64,000 nucleotides of DNA from Comamonas sp. GB3 AK4-5 (GTDB lineage: Bacteria; Pseudomonadota; Gammaproteobacteria; Burkholderiales; Burkholderiaceae_C): assembly GCF_041320665.1 (NCBI RefSeq), contig NZ_CP166730.1:1054001-1118000 (forward strand), given 5' to 3'. Under the pieces are notes generated by a model, which searched no databases, was not told the origin of the DNA, and worked only from the letters and a program-made list of their open reading frames with translations. This document shows, in pieces, positions 7,194 to 52,809 of this stretch. The first letter of the stretch is position 1; every line of letters starts with the position of its first letter. The position numbers and the translations under genes are program-made.

Positions 7194-7389
7194 CACCCCC
7201 TGAGGCGCTTCGCGTCTTCCCCCTCTCTCTCTCGCTATGCGAGGGAGGGGGACGGCACCAGCGCGGCGGGGCGGCCCTTGCGCGGCAGCCCTGACATGGG
7301 GGTGTTGCGAGCGCTGTGCTCGTTTGATGCGCTGCGTCCCTGGTCTTACTCCCTCGCCCCTCCGGGGAGAGGGTTGGGGTGAGGGGCCT
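7194..7389 (+). repeat. Dispersed GC-rich element R1, copy 1 (3' of ppc)
   Basis: It begins immediately after the ppc stop with CACCCCCTGAGGCGCTTCGCG, followed by a C-rich/G-rich hairpin and the shared core GGCACCAGCGCGGCGGGGCGG. A second palindromic block around 7350-7387 translates on the reverse strand as LTPTLSPEGRG, a peptide I recognise from spurious ORFs in many proteobacterial genomes. Similar copies lie at 15883, 37868 (inverted), 39427 and 52699 (inverted). The 310 bases between ppc and the next gene are mostly this element. Confidence 0.8.
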
Positions 7390-8307: not shown

Positions 8308-8961
8308 TCAGTATGCGGGCGGGCTCTTCACCAGCTTGGTGGTGGCGCTGGCCAGGGCCGTGATGGTGGCCCAGTCGCCATGGGCCAGGGCTGCACGCGG
8401 TGCCAGCCAGGAGCCGCCGACAAGGGTCACATTGGGCAATGCCAGATAGTCCATGGCATTGCCGGCCGTGAGCCCGCCCGTGGGGCAAAAGCGCAGGTCC
8501 GCCAAGGGGGCGGCCAGTGCTTGCAGCAAGGCCAGGCCACCGGCTTGTTCGGCCGGGAACAGCTTGAGCAGGCCAAAGCCATGCTCGCGCGCGGCCAGGG
8601 CTTCGCAGGCGGTCATCACGCCGGGAATAAAGGGCAGAGACCCGGCTGCCGCTGCGGCCAGCAGGTCGGGGCCCGCCCCGGGCGAGAGCGCAAAGCGCGC
8701 CCCGGCATCGCGCACGCGGTGCAAATCCTGGGCATCCAGCACCGTGCCGGCACCCACGCACATTTGCGGCACGGCATGGGCCACGGCGCTGATGGCATCC
8801 ATCGCCACCGGCGTGCGCAGCGTGATCTCCATGGCATCCACGCCACCGGCGAGCAAGGCCTGGGCCAGGGGCACGGCCTGGGCCAGCTTGTCGATGACGA
8901 TGACGGGCAGCACCCGGGTGCTGAATGTGGGCAAGACTGTTGCAGATGTGGGAGTGCTCAT
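8308..8961 (-). CDS. eda: KDPG aldolase (2-dehydro-3-deoxy-6-phosphogluconate aldolase)
   Basis: This aldolase cleaves 2-keto-3-deoxy-6-phosphogluconate to pyruvate and glyceraldehyde-3-phosphate. The 217-residue protein has the class I KDPG/KHG aldolase features: PVIVIDKLAQA at the start, EITLRTP, VGAGTVLDAQD, the PGVMTACEA segment, and the Schiff-base lysine in LLKLFPAE, followed by CPTGGL. The ATG at 8961 overlaps the stop of the upstream kinase gene as ATGA, so the two are coupled. It is the last gene of the minus-strand arm of the catabolic island and acts on the kinase product. Confidence 0.95.
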   Translation of the reverse strand: MSTPTSATVLPTFSTRVLPVIVIDKLAQAVPLAQALLAGGVDAMEITLRTPVAMDAISAVAHAVPQMCVGAGTVLDAQDLHRVRDAGARFALSPGAGPDLLAAAAAGSLPFIPGVMTACEALAAREHGFGLLKLFPAEQAGGLALLQALAAPLADLRFCPTGGLTAGNAMDYLALPNVTLVGGSWLAPRAALAHGDWATITALASATTKLVKSPPAY

Positions 8962-9935
8962 GCCATGGCCTCCTTGACCAGCGTCGCATTCACCTGGGCG
9001 GCATAGGGCAGCGGCGCGACCGCGCCATAGCCTTGCACGGCCAGGGCGGCGGCGGCATTGGCGTAGCGTGCGGCCGTGGTGATGTCGTTGCCCTGGGCCA
9101 GACGGGCCAGTAGATTGCCGTCGAAGCAGTCGCCCGCGCCCGTGGCGTCGGCCAGGGCCACCGGCCGGCCCGCGATACGGGTGCTGGTGTAAAGGCCCTC
9201 GTCCTGTCGGGTGCTGACCATGCAACCCTCGGCCCCCAGCTTGAGCACCACGGTGGCCGCGCCGCGTGTATGGCTCCAGTTCAGAATGTCTTGCGGCGCA
9301 GTCAGTCCGGTGAGTGCTTGCATGTCTTCCAGACTGGGCAGAAAGATGTCGCACAGCGACACCGCATGGGCGATGCAGGCACGGGCCCGCTCCAGCGGCC
9401 AGAGCTTGAGGCGCAGATTGGAGTCGAGCGCCACCTGTGCGCCTGCGGCACGGGCAATGCGCATGGCGGCGAGGGCGGTGTCGCAAGCCGTGGGCGAGAT
9501 GGCCAGGGAGATGCCCGAGACCATGAGCAGGCGGCAGTCTTGCAGCCGCTGCAGCGCTGGCGCCGTCTCTGCCCAGGCGGGCGTCATATGGCTGGCGGCC
9601 GAGCCCGTGCGCAGATAGCTGAACTGGTGGCCGGCCTCGCCATGGGTCACAAAGTAAATCCCCGTGGGCTGGCTGGCATCGCGCTGCACGGCTGCATGGT
9701 CCACGCCTTCGCGTTGCCACAGCGAGAGCAGGGCATCGCCAAAAGCGTCCTGGCCCACGCGGGTCAGATAGGCCGTGCGTGCGCCTGCACGTGCGGCCGC
9801 AATGGCTGCATTGCTGGTGTCGCCGCCAAAGCCTTGCAGGTACTGGGGCTGGTCGGCATGGGTCTGGTTGAACTCGATCAAGGCCTCGCCCAGCGTGACC
9901 AGATCCCAGGTTTTGGAGTGTGTGCCGTGCTGCAT
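8958..9935 (-). CDS. kdgK: 2-keto-3-deoxygluconate kinase (PfkB family)
   Basis: This ATP-dependent kinase probably phosphorylates 2-keto-3-deoxygluconate to KDPG. The 325-residue PfkB/ribokinase-type protein shows the GEALIEF start, the GGDTSNAAIAAARAG substrate-binding region, and the DATGAGDCFDGNLL signature near residue 270, which carries the anion hole and catalytic Asp. PfkB kinases vary in substrate. The specificity is inferred from the KDPG aldolase directly downstream in an ATGA overlap, and from general similarity to KdgK. I start it at the ATG at 9935, 11 bases after ridA. Confidence 0.88.
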   Translation of the reverse strand: MQHGTHSKTWDLVTLGEALIEFNQTHADQPQYLQGFGGDTSNAAIAAARAGARTAYLTRVGQDAFGDALLSLWQREGVDHAAVQRDASQPTGIYFVTHGEAGHQFSYLRTGSAASHMTPAWAETAPALQRLQDCRLLMVSGISLAISPTACDTALAAMRIARAAGAQVALDSNLRLKLWPLERARACIAHAVSLCDIFLPSLEDMQALTGLTAPQDILNWSHTRGAATVVLKLGAEGCMVSTRQDEGLYTSTRIAGRPVALADATGAGDCFDGNLLARLAQGNDITTAARYANAAAALAVQGYGAVAPLPYAAQVNATLVKEAMA

Positions 9936-9946
9936 GGCGGGGCCAC

Positions 9947-10339
9947 TCAGTTGCGGGGCTTGTAGGCCGTGACGTCGATCTCGACCTTGGCGTCGATCAT
10001 CAACAGCGACTGCACCGTGGAGCGCGCGGGGCGGTGATCGCCAAAGCATTCCATATAGACGCGGTTGAAGCTGCCGAAGTCGCGGGCATCGGCCAGCCAG
10101 ACGCTGACCTTGGCCACATCCTGCAGCGTGCAATCGGCCAGGGCCAGGGCGGCCTTGACGCGCTCAAACACCTGGCGTGTCTGGGCTTCGATGCCGCCCG
10201 CGATGACCTCGCCCTGGTCGTTGGTGGGCACCTGGCCCGAGACAAACACAAAGTCCCCGGCGCGCGTGGCCGGAGACAGGGGGCGGGCCTGACGGTCCGA
10301 GGCCAGCGGCGATTGACCCAGCATTTCGACTTTCGACAT
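9947..10339 (-). CDS. RidA-family enamine/imine deaminase
   Basis: RidA proteins hydrolyse reactive enamine/imine intermediates such as 2-aminoacrylate released by PLP enzymes. The 130-residue protein has the trimer-forming YjgF/RidA fold markers: a FVFVSGQVP strand, the V.VWLAD segment, the Arg in HRPARSTVQ that binds substrate carboxylate, and IEIDV-type ending (VEIDVTAY). I prefer the ATG at 10339 because AAGGAG lies 6 bases upstream; the ATG at 10345 directly abuts that site. It leads the minus-strand operon, and an operator-like palindrome sits just upstream of its ribosome site. The divergent operon encodes a PLP deaminase, its likely partner. Confidence 0.92.
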   Translation of the reverse strand: MSKVEMLGQSPLASDRQARPLSPATRAGDFVFVSGQVPTNDQGEVIAGGIEAQTRQVFERVKAALALADCTLQDVAKVSVWLADARDFGSFNRVYMECFGDHRPARSTVQSLLMIDAKVEIDVTAYKPRN

Positions 10340-10352
10340 GCTCATCTCCTTA

Positions 10353-10367
10353 TGTAATGTTATTACT
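10353..10367. promoter_or_regulatory. RpiR/HexR-like operator 1
   Basis: TGTAAT-GTT-ATTACT is a near-perfect palindrome matching the HexR/RpiR-type consensus TGTARTnnnAYTACA as I recall it. It lies immediately upstream of the ridA Shine-Dalgarno sequence. A second copy is exactly 73 bases away, about seven helical turns. Confidence 0.6.
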
Positions 10368-10425
10368 CAAAAAATACAGGAAAACCCTGTTAATTGCGAA
10401 CAGAACTCTGAAATACGATTCGCGA

Positions 10426-10440
10426 TGTAATTTTATTACT
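10426..10440. promoter_or_regulatory. RpiR/HexR-like operator 2
   Basis: TGTAAT-TTT-ATTACT has the same palindromic half-sites as operator 1, differing only in the spacer, and the flanking CTCAAA is shared. It abuts the ribosome site (AGAGGA) of the transporter gene starting at 10454. The two sites frame the divergent promoter region. The RpiR-type regulator at 17404 is the obvious candidate ligand. Confidence 0.6.
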
Positions 10441-10453
10441 CAAAGAGGACGCG

Positions 10454-12043
10454 ATGCAAACGAAAAAACCCCGCCAGCCCCTGCAGCCAGCCCAGGGCTT
10501 TGCCGTGATGCGGCGCGATCTGCTGGGGCTGGCTGCGGCATCGGCAGCCTGGTGGTGTGGCATGGGCGCTGCGCAGGCGCAGCAGCGGGGCGGGGCCGTG
10601 AACCTGGCCATGATTGGCGAGCCCCAGGGGCTGGACCCCATGGTGTCCACGGCCGATCTGGTGGGCACGGTGATGCAGCATGTGTACGAGCCGCTTTACA
10701 CCTTTGATGGGCAATGGGCGATTGCGCCCATGCTGGCCGAGGCCTTGCCCCAGGTGTCCAAGGATGGCCTGCTCTACCAGATCGCCCTGCGCAAGGGCGT
10801 GAAGTTGCACAACGGCCGCGAGCTGAATGCCGAAGATGTGCTGGCCTCGCTGCGCCGCTGGATGGAGGTGTCCCCGCGCGGCAAGGCCGTGGCCAAGGAG
10901 GTGGAGGCCTTGACGGCCAGCGGGCCGCTGGCGATTGAGATCAAGCTCAAGGCACCTTATGCACCGCTGTTGGCCCAGCTGGCCCTGCCCACGGGCATGG
11001 CGGCCATCATGGCCAAGGAAAGCCTGGCCCCCCAGATCAAGGAGTTCATAGGCACGGGGCCTTACAAGCTCAAGGAGCGCCGGCCCGACCAGTTCATCGT
11101 GCTGGTGCGCCATGAAAGCTATAGCGCACGCAAGGAGGCCGCCAGCGGCTATGCCGGCAAGCGCGAGGCACTGATCGACGAGCTGCGCTTTGTGCCCGTG
11201 CCCAATGCCAACACCCGCATCGAGGGTGCCCTGTCCGGCCAGTTTCACTATGCCGATCTGCTGCCGGTGGAAGCCGCAGGCCGTGTGGACAAGGGAGCAC
11301 CGGCCGTGGTGCCCATCGTCACGCCCAATTTTGGTTTCCCCTACATCGTGCTCAACACCCAGGAGGGTGTGCTGGCCAAACCCGCGCTGCGCCAAGCCGT
11401 GCAGACCGCCACGGGCCAGGCCGAGTTGATGGCCGCAGGCTTTGGCAACCCGCGCTTTTTCACGGCCGAGCCCAACTTCTTCCCCAAGGGCACGCCTTTT
11501 TATGCCGATGCCGGGGCCAAGCAATACAACCAGCGCAACCCGCAGTCGGCCAAGGAGCAGGCCGCCAAGGCCGGCTACAACGGCCAGCCGCTGCGCATCA
11601 TGGTCAGCCGGCAATACGAGTTCCACTACAACATCGCCCTGGTGCTGAACGAGCAGCTGAAAAAAGCCGGTTTCAAGACCGAGATGCAGGTGGTGGACTG
11701 GGCCACGCTGGTGCAGCGCCGCAATGACGCCAAGCTCTGGGATCTGTTCATCACCCACTCGGGGGTGTTCCCCGAGCCCATGCTGTCACCACCTCAATTG
11801 GGTGAGGGCGCGCCCGGGGGCTGGGACACACCGGCCAAGAAAGTGGCGCTGACGAGCTTCAACCAGGAGAGCGATCCCGCCAAGCGTGGCGCCCTGTGGG
11901 GCCGTGTGCAGCAGCTGGTGTATGACGAGGTGCCCTTTATCGAGGTGGGCAAGTTCAACAGCCTCTCGGCACGCTCGGCCAAGCTGCAGGGCTATACGCC
12001 CTTGTTCTGGCCCTTCTTCTGGAACACCAGCCTCGCCAAGTAG
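10454..12043 (+). CDS. ABC transporter substrate-binding protein, family 5 (DppA/OppA-like)
   Basis: This 529-residue periplasmic protein captures substrate for the importer encoded next to it. The N-terminus has RRDLLGLAAASAAWW, a Tat-like or Sec signal, with probable cleavage after AQA near residue 44. The mature part shows family 5 signatures: LAMIGEPQGLDPM, HVYEPLYTFDG, LAEALPQVSKDG, KLHNGRELNAEDV and the IGTGPYKLKE segment. Family 5 proteins bind peptides, opines, oligosaccharides or nickel, so the ligand cannot be read from sequence. Context suggests an N-acylated amino acid or amino sugar acid. It is first gene of the plus-strand arm. Confidence 0.9.
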   Translation: MQTKKPRQPLQPAQGFAVMRRDLLGLAAASAAWWCGMGAAQAQQRGGAVNLAMIGEPQGLDPMVSTADLVGTVMQHVYEPLYTFDGQWAIAPMLAEALPQVSKDGLLYQIALRKGVKLHNGRELNAEDVLASLRRWMEVSPRGKAVAKEVEALTASGPLAIEIKLKAPYAPLLAQLALPTGMAAIMAKESLAPQIKEFIGTGPYKLKERRPDQFIVLVRHESYSARKEAASGYAGKREALIDELRFVPVPNANTRIEGALSGQFHYADLLPVEAAGRVDKGAPAVVPIVTPNFGFPYIVLNTQEGVLAKPALRQAVQTATGQAELMAAGFGNPRFFTAEPNFFPKGTPFYADAGAKQYNQRNPQSAKEQAAKAGYNGQPLRIMVSRQYEFHYNIALVLNEQLKKAGFKTEMQVVDWATLVQRRNDAKLWDLFITHSGVFPEPMLSPPQLGEGAPGGWDTPAKKVALTSFNQESDPAKRGALWGRVQQLVYDEVPFIEVGKFNSLSARSAKLQGYTPLFWPFFWNTSLAK

Positions 12044-12066
12044 GCGGTCACCGTCAGGGGAATGTG

Positions 12067-13017
12067 ATGTTGAAATTTCTCATCCACAGGCTGGGCGGGG
12101 CGCTGGTGGTGCTGGCCATTGTGGCGGTGCTGGTGTTTGCGCTGACGCGCCTGGCCTCGGGCGACCCCGTGGCCCTGCTGCTGGGCGACCAGGCCACAGC
12201 CGAAGACATTGCCCAGGCCCGCGTGCAATACGGCCTGGACAAGCCTTTGCCGGTGCAGTTTGCCCTTTGGGTGGGCGAGCTGCTGCAGGGCAATCTGGGC
12301 CAATCCATCTTTTTGCAGCAGCCCGTGGCGCAAACCCTGCTGGAGCGGGCCGAGCCCACGCTGATGCTGGCCCTGCTGGCCGTGGGCATTGCGGCGCTGA
12401 TTGGTGTGCCCTGCGGCATGGCGGCCGCCATCTGGCGCGGCAGCCCCAGCGACCAGCTGCTGTCCAGCGTGGCCATGCTGGGCGCCAGCGTGCCCAGCTT
12501 CTGGTTTGGCTTGATTTTGATCCAGCTGTTTGCTGTCAAGCTGGGCTGGTTCCCGGCCTCGGGCTATGGCAGCCCGGATGCGTCGTTTGCCGAGCGCTTC
12601 ACCCATTTGCTGCTGCCGGCTCTGGTGCTGGGTGTGTTGAATTCGGCCCTCATCATCCGCTTCACCCGGGCCTCCATGCTGGACATTCTGGGCGAGGACT
12701 ATGTGCGTACTGCACGCGCCAAGGGCCTGGGCGAGGCCACGGTCATGACCAAACATGTGCTGCGCAATGCGCTGGTGCCCATCATCACCGTGCTCGGGCT
12801 GACGCTGGCCTTGATGATTGGCGGCACCGTGGTCACCGAGACCGTGTTCAACCTGCCCGGCGTGGGCAATCTGGTGGTGCGTGCCGTGCTGCGGCGTGAC
12901 TACCCCGTCATACAGGGCACGTTGCTGATGATTGCCAGCGTCTATGTGTTCATCAACCTCGCCATCGATTTGGCTTACACCCTGGTCGATCCACGCATAC
13001 GTCTGGAGGGAAAATGA
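12067..13017 (+). CDS. ABC transporter permease (DppB-like)
   Basis: This 316-residue inner-membrane permease has the family layout of a first helix at residues 9-30, a periplasmic loop and five more helices. The binding-protein-dependent transport EAA loop is in EDYVRTARAKGLGEATVMTKHVLRNA (read as two parts: EDYVRTARAKGLGE, then HVLRNALVPII). The ATG at 12067 has a GGGG ribosome site; a GTG one codon earlier is possible. It follows the binding protein by 23 bases and overlaps the next permease gene by four. It forms the channel with the DppC-like protein. Confidence 0.93.
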   Translation: MLKFLIHRLGGALVVLAIVAVLVFALTRLASGDPVALLLGDQATAEDIAQARVQYGLDKPLPVQFALWVGELLQGNLGQSIFLQQPVAQTLLERAEPTLMLALLAVGIAALIGVPCGMAAAIWRGSPSDQLLSSVAMLGASVPSFWFGLILIQLFAVKLGWFPASGYGSPDASFAERFTHLLLPALVLGVLNSALIIRFTRASMLDILGEDYVRTARAKGLGEATVMTKHVLRNALVPIITVLGLTLALMIGGTVVTETVFNLPGVGNLVVRAVLRRDYPVIQGTLLMIASVYVFINLAIDLAYTLVDPRIRLEGK

Positions 13018-13855
13018 TGGGTGATTGGCGCAAATGGGCCGCGCGGCTGTTCGCGCGCAAGGTGGTGCTGATGTCGGCCTTGTTGCTGGCCGGCGTGCTG
13101 CTGGTGGCCCTGATTTTTCCCTGGGTGTCGGATGCCGATCCGAACGCCATCTCGGTCAGCGAGCGTCTGCTCGAGCCTTCGGCCACCCACTGGGGCGGCA
13201 CCGACGAGCTGGGCCGCGACGTGCTGCTGCGCATTGTGCATGGCGCACGCTACTCGCTGCTGATCGGCTTTTTCACGGCCGCGGGCGCCGTGCTGCTGGG
13301 CACGCTTCTGGGCATGTTGGCGGGTTTTTTCCGCCGCCTGGACGCGCCCATCATGCGCTGTGTGGACGCCATGATGTCCTTCCCCGACATCCTGCTGGGC
13401 ATTGCCCTGGTGTCCATTCTGGGCGCCTCGCTGTGGAACGTGATGCTGGCCCTGGTCATCGTCTACACCCCGCGTGTGGCGCGGGTAGTGCGTGCCGCCA
13501 CCATGGTGCTGCGCGAGCTGCTGTTTGTGGACGCGGCGCGCGCCCTGGGTGTGAGCACGGCGCGCATTCTGTGGCGGCACATTCTGCCGAACCTGGTCTC
13601 GCCGGTGCTGGTGCAGATCACCTTCATCTTTGCCTACGCCATCCTGGCCGAGGCCGGCCTGTCTTTTCTGGGTGTGGGCGTGCCGCCCGACATTCCCACC
13701 TGGGGCACCATGATTGCCGGCAGCCTGGAGTCGGCCGACAAGGCGTTCTGGATCATTCTCTACCCCGGCCTGGCCATTGTGTTCACCGCCTTGTCGCTGC
13801 AAATGCTGGGCGATGGCGTGCGCGATCTGCTGGACCCCAAGCTCAAGAAGGCCGC

Positions 13856-13859
<4 letters not shown>
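13014..13859 (+). CDS. ABC transporter permease (DppC-like)
   Basis: This 281-residue second permease has an N-terminal helix (about residues 15-40), the GGTDELGRDVLLRI motif typical of DppC/OppC, and five further helices. The EAA-type cytoplasmic loop is AARALGVSTARILWRHILPN. Its ATG overlaps the preceding stop and its own stop overlaps the start of the first ATPase gene, so the operon is translationally coupled. Overall length matches the family. Its substrate is the same unknown ligand as the binding protein. Confidence 0.93.
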
Positions 13860-15879
<2,020 letters not shown>

Positions 15880-15882
15880 ATG

Positions 15883-16063
15883 CACCCCCTGAGCCGCTTC
15901 GCGTCTTCCCCCTCTCTTGCGCTGTGCGCTGGAGGGGGACGGCACCAGCGCGGCGGGGCGGCCCTTGCGCGGCGCCCTGGCGTGTGCTGCGCCAGTTTTG
16001 TGCGGCACGCCCTGGTCTTGCTCCCTCGCCCCTTGGGGGAGAGGGGGGGGGGAGGGGGAGCCC
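15883..16063 (+). repeat. Dispersed GC-rich element R1, copy 2
   Basis: It starts three bases after the last transporter gene, in the same orientation as that gene. It shares with copy 1 the CACCCCCTGAG start, CGCTTCGCGTCTTCCCCCTC, the GGAGGGGGACGGCACCAGCG core and the terminal G-rich block (here with a run of nine G). It fills nearly the whole gap before the deaminase gene. The C-rich and G-rich arms can form a hairpin. Confidence 0.8.
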
Positions 16064-16104
16064 GCACAGCGCAACGCTATGGATAACGAATACCGATCAA
16101 TACC

Positions 16105-17400
16105 ATGACTTCTGATTTTTCAAACCCTTTGCTGGATGCCGCTTGCAAAGGCTTTCCACTGACGGCCCAGCCCTGCCGGGCCAGCGAGATTTCCGCGCGT
16201 GGCTGGAATCTGTTTGCGGGCGACTTGCCGCTGCCGCTGGCGGTGTTGCGTCGCTCGGCGCTGGAGCACAACCTGGCCTGGATGCAGGATTTTTCGCAGC
16301 GCAAAAACGTGCTGCTGGCGCCGCACGGCAAGACCACCATGTCGCCCGAGTTGTTTGCCCAGCAACTGGCCCAGGGAGCCTGGGGGCTGACCTTTGCCAC
16401 GGCCTACCAGGCCAGCGTGGGTGTGGCGGCCGGGGCGCGGCGCATCATCATTGCCAACCAGGTGGTGTGTGATGCCGATCTGGATGCACTGGATGCCTTG
16501 CTGGCCCGCCATGCCGATTTGCGACTGTGGTTTCTGGTCGACTCGCGCGCCCAATTGGCCTTGATCGCAGATTGGGCGCAGCGCCGGGCCAGCCAGCGCG
16601 TGTTTGATGTGCTGCTGGAAATGGGTGTTCCCGGCCAACGCACGGGCTGCCGCAGCCTGGAGCAGGCCGTGGACCTGGCCCAGGCCGTTGCGGCTTCGAC
16701 GGTGGCGCGGCTGGGTGGCATAGAGTGCTATGAGGGCGGCGTGGCACGCTGCGACAGCGAACATGATGCACGTGAGGTCACGGCCCTGGTGCGCCGCGTG
16801 GTGGAGGCTGCGCAGGCCTGCGACGCCCAAGGTCTGTGGGCAAAAGGGGAAGAGCCCGTCTTGCTCACGGCCGGTGGCTCGGCCGTGTTCGATTTGGTCG
16901 TGCCCCTGTTGCAAACCCAGAATCTGTCTCGCCCCGTGCACGGCGTGCTGCGCTCGGGTTGCTACATCACCCACGACCATGGCAACTACCAGCGCTTTCT
17001 GAAGCTGGTGGAGCAGCGTGAAGGCCTGGATGCCTCGCTGCGCCCCGCGCTCAGCGTGTGGGCCATGGTGCAGTCCGTGCCCGAACCTGGGCTGGCGCTG
17101 CTGACCTGTGGGCGGCGCGACATCTCCTATGACCTGGAAATGCCTGTGCCCGTGGGCCTGGCAAGGCGCGGTGAGCGCCTGGCGCAGCCCGCCCCTCATG
17201 GCTGGAGCATCAGCGCCCTCAATGACCAGCATGCCTATCTGCGTTTTGATGGTCAGAGCCCGCCGCAGGCCTGGCCGCGCGTGGGCGACCTGGTGGAGCT
17301 GGGCATCTCCCACCCCTGCACCACGTTTGATAAATGGCGCTGGATGCCCGTGATCGAAGACGACGGTGCCGTGAGTGGCGCCATTCACACCCGGTTTTGA
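16105..17400 (+). CDS. PLP-dependent amino acid deaminase, D-serine dehydratase-like (fold III)
   Basis: The 431-residue protein has an alanine-racemase-type N-terminal barrel and a D-serine dehydratase-like C-terminal domain. The PLP lysine is Lys76 in LAPHGKTTMSP. The C-terminal HPCTTFDKW (His403, Cys405) matches the zinc-binding pair of eukaryotic-type D-serine dehydratases. Relatives eliminate ammonia from D-serine, D-threonine or D-glucosaminate. The flanking D-aminoacylase, RidA, KDG kinase and KDPG aldolase favour a D-2-aminoaldonate such as D-glucosaminate, giving 2-keto-3-deoxygluconate, but the sequence alone does not fix the substrate. Confidence 0.88.
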   Translation: MTSDFSNPLLDAACKGFPLTAQPCRASEISARGWNLFAGDLPLPLAVLRRSALEHNLAWMQDFSQRKNVLLAPHGKTTMSPELFAQQLAQGAWGLTFATAYQASVGVAAGARRIIIANQVVCDADLDALDALLARHADLRLWFLVDSRAQLALIADWAQRRASQRVFDVLLEMGVPGQRTGCRSLEQAVDLAQAVAASTVARLGGIECYEGGVARCDSEHDAREVTALVRRVVEAAQACDAQGLWAKGEEPVLLTAGGSAVFDLVVPLLQTQNLSRPVHGVLRSGCYITHDHGNYQRFLKLVEQREGLDASLRPALSVWAMVQSVPEPGLALLTCGRRDISYDLEMPVPVGLARRGERLAQPAPHGWSISALNDQHAYLRFDGQSPPQAWPRVGDLVELGISHPCTTFDKWRWMPVIEDDGAVSGAIHTRF

Positions 17401-17403
17401 TGC

Positions 17404-18330
17404 ATGCCTGAATCCATGATTTCTTCTTCCGCGCCAGGCCTGCTGCAGCAGATGCGCGAGCGCCTGGAACAACTGCCCGAGGCCCAGCGCCGCGTGGTGC
17501 AACACGTGCTGCAAGACCCGCGCGAGGCCGTGGCCGCCACGGTGGAGCAACTGGCCCAGCAGGCCGGTGTGTCCATGCCCACCATCGTGCGCACCTGCCG
17601 CAGCTTTGGCCATGATTCGGTGCGCGAATTCATGCTGGCCCTGGCCCAGGATCTGGCCGTGTCCGGCTCCTACATCCACCGCAGTGTGCTGGCCGAGGAT
17701 TCGGCCCAGGACGTGGCCAGCAAGATCGTGCATGCGGCCGTGTCTTCGCTCACCGATCTGGGGCGGCGCATGGATGTGGACATGATCGACCGCGTGGCCA
17801 CGCGCCTGGCCCAGGCCCGGCGCATCGATTGCTACTCGGTGGGGGCCGCCTCGACTTTTATGGCCAACGAGCTGCAAAGCCGCTTGTTCCGCCTGGGGCG
17901 CACGGCGAATGCCATCTTTGATGCCCACCAGCAACTGGTCTCTGCCAGCACGCTGGGACCGGATGGCGTGGCCTTTGTGATCTCCCATGTCGGGCATATG
18001 CCCTACACCATAGAGGCTGCGCGCTTTGCACGCTCCCAGGGTGCCACCGTGGTGGCCCTGACCCAGCCTGGTACGCCGCTGGCCGAGACGGCCGACCTGC
18101 TGCTGGCGGTCTCGGCGCCGCAGGACGCCGTGATGCGTGTGGGCACGGAAGCCTATCTGGCCCATCTGGTGGTCATCGAAATCCTCACCGTGCGCCTGGC
18201 GCAAAAACTGGGTCCCGTGGCCGCACGCGGTCTGCAGCAGTTCAAGCAACTGCTGCACAAGCATGGCTTTGACAGTGCCGAGTACGACGGCATGGTGGAC
18301 AACATACAGGGCCGAGACCTGGAGAGCTGA
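17404..18330 (+). CDS. RpiR/MurR/HexR-family transcriptional regulator
   Basis: The 308-residue regulator has an N-terminal RpiR helix-turn-helix: AQRRVVQHVLQDPREAV, then the recognition region QQAGVSMPTIVRTCRSFG. A linker leads to a SIS sugar-phosphate-binding domain (about residues 125-265) with CYSVGAAST and VISHVGHMP. RpiR-family regulators respond to phosphorylated sugars or sugar acids; HexR responds to KDPG, which is an intermediate of the pathway proposed here. It starts three bases after the deaminase stop and is followed directly by the D-aminoacylase gene. The two palindromes at 10353 and 10426 are its probable targets. Confidence 0.9.
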   Translation: MPESMISSSAPGLLQQMRERLEQLPEAQRRVVQHVLQDPREAVAATVEQLAQQAGVSMPTIVRTCRSFGHDSVREFMLALAQDLAVSGSYIHRSVLAEDSAQDVASKIVHAAVSSLTDLGRRMDVDMIDRVATRLAQARRIDCYSVGAASTFMANELQSRLFRLGRTANAIFDAHQQLVSASTLGPDGVAFVISHVGHMPYTIEAARFARSQGATVVALTQPGTPLAETADLLLAVSAPQDAVMRVGTEAYLAHLVVIEILTVRLAQKLGPVAARGLQQFKQLLHKHGFDSAEYDGMVDNIQGRDLES

Positions 18331-18331
18331 G

Positions 18332-19783
18332 ATGGCTGCAAGCTGGTTGCGCGGGGGACGGATTGTCGATGGCTCGGGGCAGGCTGCCTGGTCCGGTGAG
18401 GTCTTGTTGGACCAAGGCCGTATTGCGGCTGTGGGGCCAGCGCTGGGGGCGCAGCAGCTCGCGCCCTGGCACAGTGCCGGCATAGAGGAGATCGATTGCA
18501 GCGGCCTGGTGGTGGCGCCGGGCTTTATCGATGTGCACACGCACGACGATGCGGTGGCCATAGACGCACCCGACATGCTGCCCAAGCTGTCCCAGGGCGT
18601 GACCACGGTGATCGTGGGCAACTGCGGTATCTCGCTGGCGCCTGTGGTCAGCGAGGCACCACGAGCGCCGCTGTCGCTGCTGGGGCGCCACCAGTTCCGC
18701 CACGCCAGCATGGCGGCCTATGCCCAGGCCGTGGACGCTGCGCGCCCCGCCGTGAACGTGGCCGCGCTCATAGGTCACACGGCACTGCGCATGCGGCATA
18801 TGGCCCAGCTGGACCGTGCGGCCACGCCGGCCGAGCGCCAGGCCATGGCTGAGGAGGTGGCCGCCGCCATGGAAGCTGGTGCCCTGGGCCTGTCTTCTGG
18901 TGTGTTCTACAAGGAGGCCTATGCGGCCGACCTGGACGAGCTGACCGCCCTGGCCACGGCCGCAGCCCGCCATGGCGGTGTCTACGCCACCCATATCCGC
19001 GACGAGCTGGCGCAGATACTGCCGGCCTTGCAGGAGGCGGCCCAGACCGCACGCCAGGCCGGCCTGCCGCTGGTGCTGTCCCACCACAAATGCGCGGGCG
19101 CGGCCAACTGGGGCCGCACGCGCGAAACCCTGGCCCTGGTGGATGCACTGGGCCAGCACCAACCCATCAGCCTGGATGTCTATCCCTATACCGCCGGCTC
19201 CACGGTGCTGCGCAGCGATCTGGTGGATGGCGTGATCGACATCCTGATCACGGGCAGCCAGCCCCACCCTGAAATGGTGGGGCGCTACCTCAAGGACATT
19301 GCGCGGGAATGGGCCGTCAGCGAGCGCGAGGCCAGCGAACGCCTGCAACCCGGCGGTGCCTGTTATTTCCAGATGTGCGAGCAGGATGTGGAGCGCGTCA
19401 TCGCCCATCCCAAGACCATGATTGGCTCGGACGGCCTGCCGCATGACGAGCGCCCCCACCCCCGGCTGTGGGGCGCTTTTCCCCGCGTGCTGGCCTGCTA
19501 CTGGCGTGAAAAAGGTGTGCTGGGCCTGGAGGAGGCAGTGCACAAGATGACGGGGCTGTCGGCCTCACGCTTTCGCCTGGCCGAGCGCGGCCTGCTGCGC
19601 CAGGGCTTTCATGCCGATGTGGTGGTGTTCGACCCCGAGCGCGTGCGTGACATGGCCAGCTATGAAAGCCCGGTGCAGTTCAGCCAGGGCATAGAGCGGG
19701 TCTGGGTGAATGGCCAGCTCAGCTACACCGCCCAGGGCCGCGCCACCGGCGCCCGCGCCGGGCGCTTTGTGCGCCGGGCCTAG
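18332..19783 (+). CDS. N-acyl-D-amino-acid deacylase (D-aminoacylase)
   Basis: This amidohydrolase-superfamily enzyme removes the N-acyl group from N-acyl-D-amino acids. The 483-residue protein has metal-site motifs DVHTHDD (His69, His71), the bridging-type cysteine in VGNCG (near residue 98), HHKCAG and the GSDGLPHDERPHPR loop with the catalytic Asp. Length and motifs match the D-aminoacylase family. The ATG at 18332 lies one base after the regulator stop. In this context the substrate could be an N-acetylated D-2-amino sugar acid; D-amino acids such as N-acyl-D-serine remain an alternative. It ends four bases into the convergent neighbour. Confidence 0.92.
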   Translation: MAASWLRGGRIVDGSGQAAWSGEVLLDQGRIAAVGPALGAQQLAPWHSAGIEEIDCSGLVVAPGFIDVHTHDDAVAIDAPDMLPKLSQGVTTVIVGNCGISLAPVVSEAPRAPLSLLGRHQFRHASMAAYAQAVDAARPAVNVAALIGHTALRMRHMAQLDRAATPAERQAMAEEVAAAMEAGALGLSSGVFYKEAYAADLDELTALATAAARHGGVYATHIRDELAQILPALQEAAQTARQAGLPLVLSHHKCAGAANWGRTRETLALVDALGQHQPISLDVYPYTAGSTVLRSDLVDGVIDILITGSQPHPEMVGRYLKDIAREWAVSEREASERLQPGGACYFQMCEQDVERVIAHPKTMIGSDGLPHDERPHPRLWGAFPRVLACYWREKGVLGLEEAVHKMTGLSASRFRLAERGLLRQGFHADVVVFDPERVRDMASYESPVQFSQGIERVWVNGQLSYTAQGRATGARAGRFVRRA

Positions 19784-37867: not shown

Positions 37868-37983
37868 CGCATGAAATTGGCGCCGCATAGGTCAGGGCAC
37901 CGCGCAAGGGCCGTCCCGCCGCGCTGGTGCCGTCCCCCTCCGGCGAAGCCAGAGAGGGGGAAGACGCGAAGCGGCTCAGGGTG
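37868..37983 (-). repeat. Dispersed GC-rich element R1, copy 3 (inverted)
   Basis: Read on the minus strand it gives CACCCTGAGCCGCTTCGCGTCTTCCCCC, the GGGGGACGGCACCAGCGCGGCGGG core and CCCTTGCGCGG, as in copies 1 and 2. It is oriented in the same direction as the nuclease gene it follows. The TGA of its CCCTGAGCC start is the stop codon of that gene. It fills half of the 228-base gap downstream of the 37208 gene. Confidence 0.8.
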
Positions 37984-52698: not shown

Positions 52699-52809
52699 TA
52701 AAACTGGCGCAGCCCAAGTCAGAGACGCCGCGCAAGGGCCGCCCCGCCCCGCCCCGCCGCGCTGGTGTCGTCCCCCTGGGGGGAAGCCGCGCAGCGGCTC
52801 AGGGGGGAT
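52699..52809 (-). repeat. Dispersed GC-rich element R1, copy 5 (variant B, inverted)
   Basis: On the minus strand it reads CCCCCCTGAGCCGCTGCGCGGC, a CCCCCC/GGGGGG hairpin, GACGACACCAGCGCGGCGGG, GGCGGCCCTTGCGCGGCG and TTGGGCTGCGCCAGTTTTATG. It follows recJ in the direction of recJ transcription. The ends match copy 4. Confidence 0.75.

Follow-up and report, generated by a model that had tools for sequence, protein, structure and literature searches.

Which compound do the products of an eleven-gene island in Comamonas sp. GB3 AK4-5 import and degrade? The island (positions 8308-19783) lies in a stretch of 64,000 nucleotides, here called the window (contig NZ_CP166730.1, positions 1,054,001 to 1,118,000), of a 5.05-Mb genome that consists of a single contig. 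The original prediction had read it as a complete route from N-acetyl-D-glucosaminate, an oxidized amino sugar, to pyruvate and glyceraldehyde-3-phosphate. All its components, i. e. an ATP-binding cassette (ABC) importer of family 5, a deacylase, a fold-III pyridoxal phosphate (PLP) deaminase, RidA, a kinase, an aldolase and an RpiR regulator, are indeed present, in two operons that are transcribed away from each other on either side of a 108-bp gap. The genes found, their catalytic residues and synteny, a separate deacylase clade and operator conservation suggest, with a probability that we put slightly below 60%, an ABC-fed scavenging pathway for N-acyl-D-2-amino-2-deoxyhexonates that resembles the ong pathway in its working. 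Among single substrates, N-acetyl-D-glucosaminate is the likeliest.

The island and the ong clusters

The ong cluster serves oxidative chitin use in marine bacteria; it was described in 2022 and is genetically proven (PMC9537276). According to that paper, the genes in Pseudoalteromonas prydzensis specify an RpiR repressor (OngR), the D-aminoacylase-like OngB that deacetylates N-acetylglucosamine 1-acid, the fold-III PLP enzyme OngC, the RidA protein OngD and a 2-keto-3-deoxygluconate (KDG) kinase; the ong versions of Vibrio, Klebsiella and Serratia include a kdgA aldolase gene, and Achromobacter piechaudii is the one betaproteobacterial case. It had been assumed that the marine route uses different gene types. 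This has to be corrected: OngR, OngB, OngC, OngD and KdgK are of the same types as in the window, where RpiR, a D-aminoacylase-like deacylase, a fold-III PLP enzyme, RidA and a KDG-type kinase (by its best model, below the equivalog cut-off) are likewise linked. In contrast, the published cluster has a sodium:solute symporter (SSS), a TonB receptor and a glycoside hydrolase of family GH20, whereas the window has a family-5 ABC importer; moreover, the ong genome has a lytic polysaccharide monooxygenase (LPMO), and the window genome has no match to an AA10 LPMO. The best reading is that the module works like ong but falls outside the ong family on the defining features tested. Among the matches listed from the open-access literature, we found no paper on an ABC-fed variant in Comamonadaceae.

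The leftward operon (minus strand) consists of ridA (9947-10345; PF01042; the ongD counterpart), after 11 bp the gene of the PfkB-type, KDG kinase-like protein (8958-9935; PF00294) and, with a 4-bp overlap, that of an Eda-type 2-keto-3-deoxy-6-phosphogluconate (KDPG) aldolase (8308-8961; PF01081, E = 1.1e-64). The aldolase scores above the curated eda cut-offs (TIGR01182, 235.6 versus 156.05 bits; PRK05718, 251.9 versus 241 bits). For the kinase, KdgK (NF052444) is the best NCBIfam model and the top of 22 families listed (169.8 bits, below the cut-off of 400), and the ketodeoxygluconokinase 3lhx is the best solved relative. The rightward operon (plus strand) starts with the importer: a family-5 solute-binding protein (10454-12043; PF00496, E = 2.8e-62) and permeases of the DppB/OppB type (12064-13017) and the DppC/OppC type (13014-13859) and ATPases of the OppD/DppD type (13856-14917) and the OppF/DppF type (14914-15879). 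After a gap of 225 bp follow the genes for the deaminase (16105-17400; PF14031; the OngC counterpart, with 3gwq and D-threonine aldolases as solved relatives), the regulator (17404-18330; PF01418 and SIS; the OngR counterpart) and the D-aminoacylase-like deacylase (18332-19783; PF07969). The idea that the binding protein is of the chitobiose-binding type is unsupported, as no chitin-binding protein is named among the 60 matches listed of its 74.

From this inventory, we infer the reactions as follows. The importer would take up the acid, the metal-dependent deacylase would strip off the acyl group, and the PLP deaminase would eliminate the 3-hydroxyl group and release ammonia, yielding a 2-keto-3-deoxyhexonate; RidA may help to clear the enamine or imine. 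The kinase would then phosphorylate C6, and the aldolase would form pyruvate and glyceraldehyde-3-phosphate. The RpiR regulator is predicted to repress both operons via a paired operator in the gap, and KDPG is the candidate effector that would release it.

The module is conserved as a unit

The order ridA, divergent from the genes for binding protein, two permeases, two ATPases, deaminase, RpiR and deacylase, is complete, or so up to the contig end, in 54 other loci (41 closely related and 13 other, more distant ones), which rules out a chance neighbourhood. This count tolerates a deacylase lost at a contig end and covers the best 80 of 363 named loci, a choice that favours close relatives, with flanks of up to 10 kb, together with 34 more deaminase stretches from the family (Burkholderiaceae_C in the GTDB lineage) and six from the rest of the class; L127 and L128, which have no deaminase, were left out of the neighbourhood table. 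A common insertion site was considered and dismissed: only L032 has the right flank of the window, and a phosphoenolpyruvate carboxylase gene lies near the deaminase in L151 alone.

Control loci also tell against a plain D-aminoacylase operon. Of 20 further deacylase stretches, three carry window-type deacylases (L192-L194; in L194 the module is cut by the contig end), and the other 17 (L175-L191) are D-aminoacylase paralogues that served as controls. None of these 17 has a deaminase, KDG kinase (KDGK), DgoK kinase or KDPG aldolase in the DNA fetched, some of it from short contigs. Conversely, 25 of the 26 family genomes that bear a window-type deacylase also carry the deaminase. Among 369 genomes of the class, all five with a deaminase match (E 1e-30) have a deacylase match as well (seven genomes at E 1e-60), and in the four such genomes outside the family they are no more than about 3 kb apart. 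Beyond the family, too, the deaminase thus tends to be accompanied by the deacylase; the local element is the ABC importer.

The deacylase forms a clade of its own

The window deacylase retains all residues aligned to H68, H70, C97, H222, H252 and D368 of P. prydzensis OngB (PpOngB), i. e. the subtype-V metal and catalytic residues. It is about equally distant from all proteins compared (45-56% identity; 45% to PpOngB and 49% to the Alcaligenes faecalis D-aminoacylase). With the D-aminoacylases of A. faecalis (1m7j) and Bordetella (3gip) it shares the fold family, the metal site and T292, and some of these enzymes also accompany a family-5 ABC importer. However, a tree of 56 sequences, unrooted or midpoint-rooted, has three clades, i. 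e. the OngB type, the window type and the D-aminoacylases, each with an ultrafast bootstrap (UFBoot) value of 100. The window protein thus sits outside the OngB clade, and it is also excluded from the clade of the A. faecalis enzyme and its paralogues (20 sequences; UFBoot 100 unrooted and 98 with an outgroup). With this outgroup of six distant plasmid-borne relatives (row L212 is partial, 304 aa), the three clades hold at 100, 99 and 98. A sister position of the window deacylase to OngB was dropped: the initial trees had no outgroup, three clades without one cannot show which two are closest, and the rooted tree joins them at a UFBoot of 63. This lowered our estimate for the pathway from 62% to 58%. 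Among distant plasmid-borne D-aminoacylases, the one of Haloarcula (L208, 1799-1939) is annotated beside RidA and that of Deinococcus (L211, 1855-1939) beside a MurR/RpiR regulator.

The pocket sets the window type apart as well. At eight positions (PpOngB 193, 226, 256, 290, 291, 292, 298 and 348), the window and 60 window-type loci read FEAGSTLQ, the sole exception being L035 with C at 256; seven OngB-type sequences read A-E-A-(S/G)-(S/A)-S-Q-(G/N/C), and the A. faecalis enzyme reads FEMGSTRM. Position 298 stems from an ungapped loop alignment of uncertain register, in which A. faecalis has Arg where the OngB structure paper gives Leu298 (PMC12017989). This paper names the residues that set specificity: in PpOngB, the S292T exchange left 1.3% and Q298A or Q298N left 7-10% of kcat/Km (PMC12017989). 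In contrast to OngB with its S292 and Q298, the window deacylase has T and L at these sites. Together with the pairing of orthologous modules with genes of the 2-keto-3-deoxygalactonate (KDGal) type, this tells against naming N-acetyl-D-glucosaminate as the one substrate, as had been done initially.

A deacylase of 55-100% identity is found in 26 of 200 family genomes, set apart from paralogues at 52% or less; these genomes were classed by identity, and the signature was read where DNA had been fetched. In a sample of the phylum, the five correctly read sequences from outside the family all have the OngB signature, which leaves this family as the only one in which the window type was encountered; four more of the nine loci (L197, L198, L201 and L203) had been taken from the wrong strand and were excluded, as was the tree that contained them. 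One genome, the candidate Curvibacter gracilis G194, holds both types: the ABC module L108, and a deaminase-GntP-deacylase-RidA-KDGK cluster (L159) with a second deacylase that is 56% identical yet has the OngB signature. Two full front ends in one genome suggest that they differ in substrate or in transport niche. L159 and a similar cluster, L123, share the deaminase and RidA with the window module, and in addition KDGK (L159) or RpiR (L123); unlike the module, they have an OngB-type deacylase and a GntP permease as the transporter.

The kinase and aldolase slot is variable

A KDGK or DgoK kinase is linked to 37 of the 54 complete modules, on either side (34 of 41 in the close and three of 13 in the distant set; DgoK was assigned to PF05035 from one representative). 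KDGK occurs in 20 modules, 17 times beyond ridA as in the window and three times after the deacylase; DgoK occurs in 19 (18 beyond ridA, one after the deacylase), and two modules have both. Aldolase genes were found in 22 of the 54 modules, with the DgoA type in 19 and the Eda type in three of the 41 close modules and none in the 13 distant ones. The proposed logic of deacylase, deaminase, kinase and aldolase is supported by the kinase, which is linked in most syntenic loci overall and in none of the 17 controls. The aldolase is absent from most of these loci, and in the distant set the kinase is mostly and the aldolase always missing, which by the original prediction would speak against this logic. 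In L086 and L108, the Eda gene is on the opposite strand; that of L108 is adjoined by a dehydratase of the IlvD/Edd family. For kinases outside the modules, 12 chosen genomes permit no firm conclusion: the PfkB match is 64% identical to the window kinase in two of them, 53% in one and at most 39% in nine, and seven have a DgoK match.

The slot is filled by KDG-type genes in the window and by KDGal-type DgoK and DgoA genes in Variovorax and in other Comamonas. The window aldolase has a PTGG motif, and the DgoA-type proteins have PVGG (in one case PVGS), a position that presumably parts KDPG from KDPGal aldolases. It is thus conceivable that the substrate is the C4 epimer N-acetyl-D-galactosaminate, or both epimers, as a special case of the pathway proposed here: the product would be KDGal or a mixture of KDG and KDGal, and each lineage would have the matching kinase and aldolase. 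This version, which we consider unlikely, is in agreement with the DgoK and DgoA genes (19 of 54 modules each) and their motif, with the presence of both an ong-type cluster and an ABC module in the Curvibacter genome, and with changes at the deacylase positions that align with the C3 and C5 hydroxyl ligands of OngB. On the other hand, kinase and aldolase of the window itself belong to the KDG/KDPG type, the residue aligned to the C4 hydroxyl ligand E226 is unchanged, the occurrence of module genes in a chitin context (see below) points to glucosamine derivatives, and the KDGal genes may serve other aldonate routes. In two genomes (L171, 7423-11802; L172, 5232-10767), KDGK, DgoK and DgoA lie in one run with an IlvD-type sugar-acid dehydratase; this would fit both epimers, but the dehydratase suggests that the two kinases probably have a further task in another aldonate route. 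It is tempting, if bold, to speculate that the window-type deacylases represent a substrate class of their own, the third beside OngB and the D-aminoacylases, and that with the module a route for N-acetyl-D-galactosaminate becomes known for the first time, or else one that is blind to the C4 epimer and takes both oxidized amino sugars, with KDG and KDGal kinases and aldolases swapped behind a common front end; the odds are clearly against this.

A probable paired operator in the divergent gap

HexR and RccR are proteins of the RpiR family, and the window regulator has HexR as its best NCBIfam model (176 bits, cut-off 296). Sequence searches and the comparison of module gaps revealed two operator-like palindromes in the 108-bp gap, TGTAATGTTATTACT (10353-10367, plus strand) and TGTAATTTTATTACT (10426-10440, plus strand), with their starts 73 bp apart. 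The window has no further match to them with one mismatch allowed, and TGTAATNNNATTAC has three matches in the genome, two of which are the gap palindromes. In 20,000 dinucleotide shuffles of the gap, one core was seen ten times and two cores never. The 13-bp core is present in 34 of the 54 module gaps and nowhere else in the 1.08 Mb of those loci. Both palindromes resemble the published HexR site TGTAATTAAATTACA (PMC11906056). They are also similar to the paired RccR sites TGTAGTTTTACTACT and TGTAGTAAAACTACA of Pseudomonas, which lie 68 bp apart; binding there is weakened by KDPG (PMC5489143). The window shares with this HexR/RccR system a HexR-like regulator and 15-bp TGTA(A/G)T..A(T/C)TAC palindromes in two copies about 70 bp apart; unlike there, the regulator of the window is predicted to exert local operon control.

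The deaminase is more widespread than the module

The original prediction had pointed to Lys76 and a His/Cys zinc pair in the deaminase. These residues, K76 in H74-G75-K76 and H403/C405 in SHPC, are all invariant in the deaminase alignment. Among the best 80 of the 363 loci, the closest named relatives are those of Comamonas composti and of an Acidovorax metagenome-assembled genome (95% identity each). The identity to the deaminases of five ong-type clusters, a set that does not include P. prydzensis OngC, is 37-41%, and these form a separate group in the tree. The gene is present in 53 of 200 family genomes. Of 52 family deaminase loci that have no importer and deacylase (56 minus four ong-type loci), 21 carry KDGK and/or DgoK beside the deaminase. 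In the tree, deaminases that stand alone are interspersed with module-linked ones, suggesting that the module was gained or lost around a persistent deaminase gene. A residue rule that parts the two groups was sought and rejected, since it came down to three weak column differences. L035 and L042, with neighbouring deaminases, have common flanking families; L042 has the deaminase only, and in L035 the other module genes flank the deaminase on both sides. Four copies of a GC-rich repeat lie in the window (7248-7277, 15935-15964, 37908-37937 and 52746-52775; 0-3 mismatches; none in 100 shuffles), with the second copy in the 225-bp gap ahead of the deaminase gene.

The chitin context

Chitin oxidation by the host itself is not supported: its genome has neither an LPMO_10 (AA10, PF03067) nor a GH20 match. 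Both are rare in the family (LPMO_10 in eight and GH20 in ten of 200 genomes). Six of the ten GH20 genomes are among the 26 that bear a window-type deacylase (p = 4e-4, Fisher test; they belong to four genera and are not independent). GH20 is the neighbour of ridA, the deaminase gene and a window-type deacylase gene in two genomes of one genus, G036 (L154) and G160 (L155). L154 also encodes a sugar-type binding protein, a GH19 chitinase, a TonB receptor and a two-component pair, and by this gene content we read it as a putative chitin-use locus. Related chitin-use loci that lack the ridA-deaminase-deacylase trio are found elsewhere in the module genomes G062, G075, G077 and G182. In one of these loci, L170, the genes for GH20 and the importer are accompanied by a gene for a seven-bladed beta-propeller lactonase (14147-15436), whose product could open the lactone of an oxidized amino sugar.

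An acylated amino acid as a possible alternative substrate

Several observations weigh against the proposed pathway, and many of them favour the scavenging of N-acyl-D-amino acids: N-acyl-D-serine or N-acyl-D-threonine, or a peptide-like conjugate, might be imported, deacylated to the D-amino acid and deaminated to pyruvate or 2-oxobutyrate, and the kinase and aldolase would have a separate job. We regard this as quite unlikely. As for the deacylase, it has T292 and L298 rather than the S292 and Q298 of OngB, its T292 and F193 are as in the A. faecalis D-aminoacylase (PMC12017989), and its kinship to OngB has a UFBoot of only 63. Yet A and Q take the place of the hydrophobic pocket residues of the M254/M346 type that are found in the A. 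faecalis enzyme. Moreover, linkage is incomplete: a linked kinase is missing from 17 and a linked aldolase from 32 of the 54 modules, five close and ten other modules having neither; L192 and L193 have RpiR and the deacylase but no kinase and no space for a deaminase, and L192 also lacks the ATPases; and G192, one of the 26 genomes with a window-type deacylase, has no deaminase match. A family-5 ABC importer is present at three of the 17 control loci, all without a kinase, and RidA at two of them. Since RidA adjoins these controls, and RidA or RpiR adjoins distant D-aminoacylases, both are weak evidence for the sugar acid pathway. Against the amino acid alternative, KDG or KDGal kinases are linked repeatedly, and on both sides, to the module but to none of the controls.

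The deaminase is the second focus of this debate. In 26 loci it stands alone, i. e. without importer, deacylase, RidA, RpiR and kinase (among them L153, in which the gene is interrupted by stops in the genome and which was omitted from the tree). Besides D-glucosaminate, which it turns into KDG, OngC deaminates D-serine and D-threonine (PMC9537276), so that the role of the deaminase need not be sugar-specific. The stand-alone and kinase-linked genes fit an enzyme with a dual role in sugar acid and D-amino acid metabolism. Finally, 20 of the 54 gaps lack the operator core (13 more distant modules, five Comamonas loci, i. e. C. odontotermitis, C. koreensis and relatives, and two Curvibacter loci), the host has no LPMO_10 and GH20 match, and no association between LPMO and the deacylase was found across the family (one of eight genomes, p = 1). 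Nevertheless, the HexR/RccR-like operator with its HexR-like regulator and the module genes in the chitin-use locus L154 argue against the amino acid alternative and for the use of an acylated amino sugar acid.

Implications

As compared to the published ong clusters, the family-5 ABC importer, the separate deacylase clade and the swapped kinase and aldolase slot are new, and the enzyme types are already known. The deacylase clade, whose fixed pocket differs from those of OngB and the D-aminoacylases, offers a clean test of how substrate choice evolved. The exchange of kinase and aldolase allows a direct test of the C4 specificity of the front-end enzymes. If our interpretation is correct, the use of oxidized amino sugars, which has been reported mainly from gammaproteobacteria, would extend to many Comamonadaceae. 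Since 25 of the 26 genomes that bear the deacylase have no LPMO_10 match, these bacteria may live by cross-feeding on acids that are made by others.

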